64,000 nt of DNA from Paenacidovorax monticola. GTDB taxonomy: Bacteria; Pseudomonadota; Gammaproteobacteria; Burkholderiales; Burkholderiaceae_C. Where the stretch lies: contig NZ_CP060790.1 of NCBI RefSeq assembly GCF_014489595.1, forward strand, positions 4,340,001 to 4,404,000. Direction: 5' to 3'. Below are positions 45,625-47,654 of this stretch, in pieces (positions within the stretch are counted from its first letter, which is position 1; the number at the start of each line of letters is the position of its first letter). Under the pieces are notes generated by a model. That model searched no databases and was not told where the DNA came from. It saw nothing but the letters and a program-made list of their open reading frames with translations. The translations under genes and the position numbers were made by a program.

Positions 45625-46602
45625 ATGATCGAAGCCACCCTCTGGCATCCCGTCGCCGATGCACAGGATGTCGCGCAGGCACCGCTGGCCGCGCGCCTGC
45701 TGCAGCGCGACATCGTGCTCTGGCGCGACGGCGAAGGCCGCGTGCAGGCCTTCGCGGACCAATGCCCGCACCGGGGCGCACGCCTTTCGCTCGGCCGCGT
45801 GCACGAAGGCCGGCTGGAGTGTCCCTACCACGGCTGGCGGTTCGCCGCCAGCGGCCAGTGCGAGCATGTGCCTGCGCTGCCGCATTTCACGCCACCCGCC
45901 ACGCACTGCGCCCGCCGCCATGCCGTGCACGAGGCCCATGGCCTGGTGTGGGTGCGGCTCGAAGCCGGCGACGCTGCGCCGCCTGCCTTCGGGCCCGAAG
46001 ACGACGCGCGCCTGCGCAAGCTCAACTGCGGCCCCTACGACGTGGCGGCCAGCGCGCCGCGCATCATCGAGAACTTTCTCGACATGTCGCACTTCGGCTT
46101 CGTGCACGAGGGCTGGCTGGGCACGCGCGAGGCCACGGCCATCGAGGACTACCGCGTGGAGCCCTTGCCCACGGGCTTGCGGGCCACGGGCTGCAAGGCC
46201 TGGCAGCCCCAGTCCAACCTGCATTCCACCCAGGCGGCGCAGGTGGAGTACACGTACGAGGTCACCGGGCCCTACACGGCCGTGCTGACCAAGGTGCCCG
46301 AGGCCGGCACCACCGCCGTGCAGGACTGGCGCGAGGCGATCGCGCTCTTCGTGTGCCCGCTCACACCCGAGACGAGCCGCGTGTGGTTCCGCCTTGCGGT
46401 GGCCGATTTCGACACGCCCGACGCCAAGCTGCGGGCCTTCCAGCACACCATCTTCACGCAGGACCAGCCGGTGCTCGAATCGCAGCGCCCCCAGCGCCTG
46501 CCGCTCGATCTGCGCGCCGAGTTGCATACGGCCGCCGACAAGGCATCATCCGCGTACCGCCGCTTTCTCAAGGCCAGCGGCATCACCTTTGGAGTCTGCT
46601 GA
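45625..46602 (+). CDS. Rieske non-heme iron oxygenase, alpha-type
   Basis: This 325-residue protein has an N-terminal Rieske [2Fe-2S] site, CPHRG (Cys47, His49) and CPYHGW (Cys66, His69), and a C-terminal catalytic domain with [13 protein letters not shown], giving Asn150, Asp153, His156 and His161 as the bridging residue and mononuclear iron ligands. It resembles the one-component-size oxygenases that demethylate or hydroxylate (vanillate, methylxanthine or pheophorbide-type groups). No reductase is adjacent. The stop overlaps the adenine deaminase start by one base, so the two are very likely co-translated; a purine-related substrate is an inference from that. Confidence 0.88.
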
Positions 46603-47654
46603 TGTTCAAGGTCCCTCCCGTCCCCGCCTCGCGCCTGCCCGCCCTGCTGCGCGCCATGCCCAAGGCCGAGCTGCACATCCACATCGAAGGCTCGCTCGAA
46701 CCCGAGCTGATCTTCGCCCTGGCGCAGCGCAACGGCGTGCCGCTGCCCTATGCGAGCGTGGAGGAGCTGCGCCGCGCCTACGCGTTCACCAACCTGCAGA
46801 GCTTCCTCGACATCTACTACGCGGGCGCCAGCGTGCTGCTGCACGAGCAGGACTTCTACGACATGGCGCGCGCCTACCTGGCGCGGGCCGTGGCCGACCA
46901 CGTGGCGCATGCCGAGATCTTCTTCGACCCGCAGACGCACACGGCGCGCGGCGTGCCGATCGAGACCGTGATCAACGGCCTGCACCGCGCCTGCGAGGAC
47001 GCGCGCACCGAACTGGGCATCAGCGCCACGCTGATCCTGTGCTTCCTGCGTCACCTGAGCGAGGAGTCCGCCTTCGAGACCCTGGAGCAGGCCCAGCCGC
47101 TGCTCGACAAGATCGTCGGCGTGGGCCTGGACAGCAGCGAGGTGGGCCACCCGCCCGAGAAATTTGCCCGCGTGTTCGCGCGCTGCCGCGAGCTGGGCCT
47201 GCACCTCGTGGCCCACGCGGGCGAGGAGGGGCCGCCGGCCTACATCTGGAGCGCGCTCGACGTGCTCAAGGTCGAGCGCATCGACCACGGCGTGCAGGCC
47301 GTGCACGATGCCCTGCTCATGCAGCGCCTGGCGCAGGACCGCATCGCGCTCACCGTGTGCCCGCTGTCCAACCAGAAGCTCCAGGTGTTCCCCAACCTCG
47401 CCGACCACAATCTCGGCAAGCTGCTCGACGCGGGCCTGGCCGCCACCGTCAACTCGGACGATCCGGCCTACTTCGGCGGCTACATCAACGAGAACTTCAC
47501 GCAGGTGTTCGCCGCCACGGGGCTCACGGCGCGCAATGCCTACCAGCTCGCGTGGAACAGCTTCGAGGCGAGCTTCGCGTCCAGCGCCGACAAGCGCAAC
47601 TGGGAGCACCAGCTCAAGGAAGTCTTCGAGCGCTGCTACGAGCACGACGACTGA
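46602..47654 (+). CDS. Adenine deaminase (adenosine-deaminase-like family)
   Basis: This 350-residue metal-dependent deaminase matches the bacterial/fungal adenine deaminase branch of the ADA family. Zinc ligands are His25 and His27 in [18 protein letters not shown], and the [10 protein letters not shown] aspartates. Branch-specific stretches are [56 protein letters not shown] and [13 protein letters not shown], which fit adenine rather than adenosine as substrate. It converts adenine to hypoxanthine for XdhAB. Its ATG at 46602 overlaps the Rieske oxygenase stop (TGATG). Confidence 0.92.

Follow-up and report, generated by a model that had tools for sequence, protein, structure and literature searches.

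Gene Pair and Its Surroundings

The window, by which we mean the whole stretch of 64,000 nt that was analysed, is a purine degradation locus, with a xanthine permease and a dCTP deaminase among its genes. It contains a Rieske non-heme iron oxygenase gene whose stop codon overlaps the start codon of a deaminase gene. The features that enter the discussion are the following.

5912-7687 (-): OHCU decarboxylase/allantoate amidohydrolase fusion
7691-8650 (-): allantoinase PuuE
21577-22491 (+): XdhC accessory protein
22684-23940 (+): urate oxidase, Urate_ox_N type
30511-32838 (-): xanthine dehydrogenase (XDH) molybdopterin subunit; TIGR02965/TIGR02963 (XDH pair) above cut-off
32838-34349 (-): XDH small subunit; TIGR02965/TIGR02963 (XDH pair) above cut-off
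35581-37176 (+): ABC transporter ATP-binding subunit (BMP1 transporter)
37121-38242 (+): ABC permease 1 (BMP1 transporter)
38330-39213 (+): ABC permease 2 (BMP1 transporter), frame change near 38910
39295-40455 (+): BMP1, AtzT-like ABC substrate-binding protein
40541-44934 (.): module of DAO-family oxidoreductase, amino-acid ABC genes, and frame-cut IclR regulator
45104-45460 (+): small cupin (EutQ-like, PF05899), just 5' of the oxygenase
45625-46602 (+): Rieske non-heme iron oxygenase (Rieske and VanA_C domains), 325 aa, ATG start
46600-46604 (+): TGATG, overlap of the oxygenase stop and the deaminase start
46602-47654 (+): member of the adenosine/adenine deaminase family, 350 aa, ATG start; nearest to the adenine deaminases of PA0148 type
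49361-50464 (+): BMP2, second Bmp-family binding protein
50521-51806 (+): guanine deaminase, two frames in the assembly, break near 51145

Both open reading frames of the pair are intact in the window, and the TGATG overlap described in an earlier note on this DNA is real. Of 80 related loci (the best 80 of 578 relatives), 47 have the same TGATG where the oxygenase ends (at one of the 47, L062, the contig ends 53 bases further on), and 5 more have ATGA, so that the overlap is more than a chance feature.

The oxygenase matches the Pfam families Rieske (PF00355) and VanA_C (PF19112). The deaminase matches A_deaminase (PF00962), for which a profile search of the 4.68 Mb genome returns this protein as the single match, and it scores above the cut-offs of two NCBIfam models named adenosine deaminase, NF006850 (571.6 bits, cut-off 419) and TIGR01430 (390.2 bits, cut-off 216.55). 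Its top solved relatives are 3ou8 (410 bits; together with 3pan, 3pao, and 3pbm) and 3rys (375 bits), which we take to be adenine-specific enzymes, namely PA0148 and its Arthrobacter counterpart. The alignment with the PA0148-type enzyme extends over 312 residues (410 bits) and reveals no difference of note. From these relatives, we infer that the substrate of the deaminase would be adenine rather than adenosine.

In this genome the pair is parted from BMP1 by the DAO/amino-acid ABC/IclR/cupin module (40541-45460), as is also the case at two related loci (L077 and L027). No HpxE-type reductase gene adjoins the oxygenase, which implies that an unlinked reductase would supply the electrons; the genome encodes a single strong HpxE relative, at 2490524-2491426, beside another Rieske gene. 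Control of the cluster by a riboswitch was considered and set aside, as no Rfam match at gathering scores was found across the 64,000 nt of the window.

Compared to intact relatives, frame changes or losses are seen at about 38910, 43690-43740, 44934, and 51145, and the affected genes are those of permease 2, the amino-acid binding protein, the IclR regulator, and guanine deaminase. Such changes near the pair can reflect noise in the assembly or decay of the genes.

Conservation of the Linkage

In a scan of GTDB contigs, the best 80 of 578 relatives of the oxygenase, with 66-86% identity by tblastn, mostly carry the names Acidovorax, Paracidovorax, Comamonas, Delftia, Variovorax, Ramlibacter, and Rhodoferax. 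For each of these loci, a stretch of at most 8 kb on each side was stored. The deaminase gene is located directly downstream of the oxygenase in 63 of the 80 (within 150 bp in 62 of them, and overlapping by ATGA in L023), within 1.8 kb downstream in 7 further loci, and directly upstream in 1 (L056). It is thus found within 3 kb in 71/80 loci, one of these upstream. The stored stretch contains no deaminase at the other 9 loci, 4 of which have less than 3 kb of contig left. BMP1 lies upstream of the oxygenase within 400 bp in 60/80 loci, at 0.4-2 kb in 3, and at more than 2 kb in 9, and is unseen in 8, while a guanine deaminase is visible in 38/80 stored stretches and an XDH subunit in 27/80. 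In most relatives, the oxygenase gene therefore adjoins the genes of the AtzT-like protein and the adenine-type deaminase, and guanine deaminase and xanthine dehydrogenase are often close to it.

In an even draw of 299 genomes from the family of the window (taken as Burkholderiaceae in the GTDB sense), 85 genomes from 57 of 141 genera encode the oxygenase (E <= 1e-55), and 236/299 encode the deaminase (E <= 1e-70). A deaminase on the same strand within 3 kb downstream of the oxygenase is present in 73 of the 85, a count composed of 56/61 listed rows (38 genus codes, counted by hand) and 17 of the 24 other genomes, for which no deaminase row was visible and which were all read from genome stretches. 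The 12 genomes that have no such nearby deaminase are G529 (10 kb), G461 (other contig), G384 (contig ends after 491 bases), G466, G445, G333, G421, G504, G373, G386, G355, and G324. The linkage persists down to about 48% identity, as in G407 (49%) and G329 (48%), which have the same 3-base offset as the window. The earlier note had regarded a lack of conserved linkage in other genomes as an argument against its reading; with the deaminase near the oxygenase in 73/85, this objection falls away. Genes for purine uptake and degradation form a conserved cluster to which the oxygenase belongs.

The deaminase often accompanies the oxygenase and is not an obligate partner, since G421 and G504 keep the oxygenase and have no adenine-deaminase match at E <= 1e-70. 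Adenine would therefore be at most one of the products of the oxygenase and need not be a product at all, and we have discarded strict adenine production, which the earlier note had proposed. A modified purine as the substrate, proposed in the same place, remains plausible in view of the linkage and of the purine-active relatives discussed below. It could equally well be that the deaminase acts before the oxygenase, in the order adenine, hypoxanthine, xanthine.

At two of the loci, a gene of the PNP_UDP_1 superfamily encoding 195-201 residues is located directly before the oxygenase (L029:166-768 and L041:7362-7946). The top NCBIfam model for both proteins is NF004168, 'nucleosidase', whose cut-off they do not reach, and these two stretches show no deaminase. 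Around an S. meliloti relative, the neighbouring genes have hardly any annotation that can be used.

Metal-Site Residues

The earlier note had listed Cys47, His49, Cys66, and His69 as Rieske ligands and Asp153, His156, and His161 as ligands of the catalytic iron. All seven residues are present in the oxygenase; Cys47 is found in 134/135 family rows and the other six in 135/135. The protein displays the C-x-H and C-x2-H pairs, the D-x2-H-x4-H motif, and the C-terminal Asp that characterize the Rieske/VanA_C group. In the Rieske fold, the D-x2-H-x4-H motif provides a subunit-bridging Asp and two His ligands. Asp153 is therefore probably the Asp that bridges the subunits, and Asp280, invariant in a 44-row alignment, is the more likely third ligand of the iron. 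The list thus stands as to the residues and, judging from the fold, probably not as to the role assigned to Asp153.

At the iron site, Asn150 is found in 135/135 family rows and also in NdmA and NdmB, whereas the corresponding residue is Gly in 119/120 HpxD rows, with 1 gap. The E-G-F motif of HpxD, in which this Gly occurs, is absent from the oxygenase family. Gln273 (133/135 rows) and Phe277 (135/135) occupy the positions altered in the NdmA QL mutant, which we take to be numbered Asn282 and Phe286 in NdmA. The Gln/Phe combination is a mixture of those in NdmA (Asn/Phe) and NdmB (Gln/Leu).

Relationship to Characterized Oxygenases

The oxygenase is about 36% identical to HpxD, 35% to NdmA, and 33% to NdmB. 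HpxD, likewise a Rieske and VanA_C protein, is named by NCBI as a molybdenum cofactor-independent xanthine hydroxylase subunit, and PMC7373994 describes roles of the K. pneumoniae hpxDE genes in the oxidation of hypoxanthine and xanthine. One HpxD copy (L172) is situated in a purine locus with a permease, guanine deaminase, hydroxyisourate hydrolase, and OHCU decarboxylase. HpxD differs from the present oxygenase in having Gly instead of Asn in the iron-site motif and in being followed directly by its reductase gene, whereas the oxygenase has no such reductase adjacent and has XDH encoded close by. NdmA and NdmB, described in PMC12445004 for the caffeine pathway of Pseudomonas putida CBB5 with the multidomain reductase NdmD, have the same fold as the oxygenase and share the Asn of the iron-site motif.

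In the tree, the oxygenase family is sister to HpxD rather than to NdmA/B, with a support of 98/86, and lies outside the clade formed by the 12 HpxD rows (100/100). The alternative topology in which NdmA/B group with the family is not rejected, with an AU p of 0.17. The tree omits L163 and L152, which are truncated, and the two HpxD copies of G734 (L172 and L162), and SxtT/GxtA are also absent from it; for 26 further loci, proteins of 280-480 residues were used and 24 were kept. At the 54 columns that split the family from HpxD, NdmA agrees with the family in 13, with HpxD in 10, and with neither in 23, and has a gap in 8. Neither the tree nor these columns place the family firmly with NdmA/B or with HpxD.

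The nearest structures to the oxygenase are SxtT/GxtA, which are C-H hydroxylases. Unlike the catabolic setting of the oxygenase, these enzymes belong to alkaloid biosynthesis and hydroxylate a C-H bond of a tricyclic substrate. The skeletons accepted by the structural relatives are diverse and include saxitoxin analogues, dicamba, and guaiacol.

The substrates of the nearest characterized relatives are purines or compounds with a purine-like skeleton and not aromatic acids, the latter being the outcome that the earlier note had named as speaking against it. On this basis, a purine-type substrate for the oxygenase is well supported. The methylxanthine demethylases, in contrast to what had been assumed, are not the sole purine-active relatives, because HpxD is at least as close.

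The Associated Binding Protein

BMP1 matches AtzT (6pi5; 382 bits) and 3s99. According to PMC6834077, guanine was found bound to AtzT, which has affinities of 0.11 uM for guanine, 2.5 uM for adenine, and 620 uM or weaker for other nucleobases; AtzT also binds 2-hydroxyatrazine and ammeline. Of the nine AtzT site residues compared, BMP1 keeps five, Phe98, Glu165, Asn169, Trp194, and Asn218 (Phe120, Glu187, Asn191, Trp216, and Asn240 in BMP1), while four are changed, Tyr45 to Trp, Ser97 to Thr, Thr139 to Ala, and Asn220 to Asp.

Co-occurrence with Xanthine Dehydrogenase

Of the 85 genomes with the oxygenase, 83 have an XdhB match (E <= 1e-80, counted by hand), as do 173 of the 214 others and 256/299 overall, all of these being upper counts because paralogues pass the threshold, as seen from the two matches in the genome of the window (G000). 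The two misses among the 85 are G312, which is 74% complete and has an XDH-type fragment at a contig edge, and G504. With an XDH-like protein in 83/85, the oxygenase appears to add to XDH rather than to replace it, and a molybdenum-free replacement of XDH as its general role was rejected. G000 additionally encodes three further MoCoBD_2 (XDH-like) proteins, at C1:2064077, 4539462, and 1031741-1033657.

The case of G504 deserves a closer description. This single draft genome (99% complete, 130 contigs) keeps the transporter, the oxygenase, and guanine deaminase, and no adenine deaminase (E <= 1e-70), MoCoBD_2 protein, or Urate_ox_N protein was found in it. G421 and G296 belong to the same genus as G504; the former encodes XDH and urate oxidase and has no deaminase match, and the latter is without the oxygenase, XDH, urate oxidase, and the deaminase. 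The oxygenases of G504 and G421 differ by a dN of 0.14 and a dS of 0.68 (NG86), which fits with at least one of the two lineages being under constraint. G504 would gain little from xanthine or urate as a product, while a freed base would be useful for salvage. G421 and G504 (L141, L142, L183, and L186) constitute a natural test of the purpose of the oxygenase.

Proposed Function

We favor N-demethylation or N-dealkylation over an HpxD-like role. The oxygenase may act as an oxidative N-demethylase/N-dealkylase of an imported modified purine base, a tentative proposal to which we assign a little under an even chance. In the proposed mechanism, the BMP-type transporter would bring in a mixture of free bases, and an unlinked reductase would supply the oxygenase with electrons. 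The oxygenase would then hydroxylate the carbon of an N-linked methyl (or small alkyl) group, which would leave as the aldehyde. Whichever base is released, be it adenine, guanine, hypoxanthine, or xanthine, would be passed on to the deaminases and xanthine dehydrogenase, or to salvage.

The gene linkage, the likeness of BMP1 to AtzT, the purine-active relatives, the co-occurrence with XDH, Asn150, and the gene content of G504 speak for demethylation. Against it are the sister position of HpxD (98/86), the hydroxylase activity of SxtT/GxtA, the lack of a nearby HpxE, the Gln/Phe combination, and the narrow split of the columns (13 vs 10), together with the facts that G504 is one draft genome and that its congener G296 lacks the oxygenase, XDH, and urate oxidase. 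Nor did an aldehyde-handling gene come to notice in passing. The first reading of this locus is thus borne out in part: the overlap, the linkage, and the purine kinship hold, while adenine as the specific product, the demethylases as sole purine-active relatives, and the role of Asp153 are not supported.

The most serious alternative is that the oxygenase is a molybdenum-independent hydroxylase of the HpxD type for unmodified purines, such that the deaminase would give hypoxanthine from adenine and the oxygenase, backing up XDH, would convert it to xanthine or urate. The tree position, the identity of about 36%, the NCBI name of HpxD, and the reported action of hpxDE on hypoxanthine and xanthine (PMC7373994) are in line with this, as is the fact that the product of the deaminase is a substrate of HpxD. 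However, an XDH-like protein accompanies the oxygenase in nearly all genomes, the Gly at position 150 is absent from all 135 rows, no HpxE-type reductase adjoins the gene, and G504 retains the oxygenase in the absence of detectable XDH or Urate_ox_N, where urate would be a dead end. From these sequence comparisons, we consider the HpxD-like role unlikely on balance.

It has also been considered that the substrate might be another purine-like heterocycle, such as an N-alkylated triazine, a pterin, or a methylated urate product, in which case the link to purines would consist in a shared uptake. The binding of 2-hydroxyatrazine and ammeline, besides guanine, by AtzT (PMC6834077) and the quite different skeletons used by the structural relatives would fit such a substrate. 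The retention of the deaminase linkage down to about 48% identity and the nucleosidase-type gene before the oxygenase at L029 and L041 argue against it, and we find it improbable. That the oxygenase is a mere passenger in a nucleobase cluster, with a substrate unrelated to purines, would be compatible with a few relatives, such as those at L143, L153, and L081, where the query set found no purine genes, but is very improbable given that the near family keeps the deaminase in 73/85 genomes and has BMP1 adjoining in most.

To our knowledge, the bacterial recycling of methylated and other modified nucleobases is poorly known. Among the open-licence PMC literature listed, no title describes a Rieske/adenine-deaminase pair, which is weak evidence of absence. 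The demethylase proposal can be extended to a dedicated oxygenase that would strip N-alkyl marks, such as those of N6-methyladenine, methylguanines, and cytokinins, from free purine bases on uptake in Comamonadaceae and their relatives. This is a possibility that we put forward with considerable doubt; if true, modified nucleobases from DNA, RNA, and plant hormones would feed ordinary purine salvage and degradation. With the oxygenase tied to purine import, deaminases, and XDH, there is one defined protein on which nucleobase recycling can be tested. If the role were instead HpxD-like, a molybdenum-free oxidation step would be kept beside XDH in dozens of genera (57/141 have the oxygenase). 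Either way, proteins currently named just 'aromatic ring-hydroxylating dioxygenase' would gain a purine function.

Two of the more unusual loci can be mentioned here. The Mycetohabitans relative at L081:7941-9017 (44% identical) is located near a hydroxylase, an aminotransferase, and a SidA-type N-monooxygenase, in what looks like a biosynthetic cluster. The record NZ_CACSJA010000002.1 (L033), titled Pantoea sp. 18069, contains a typical Comamonadaceae-like purine cluster, and probably either its name is wrong or the record is contaminated.
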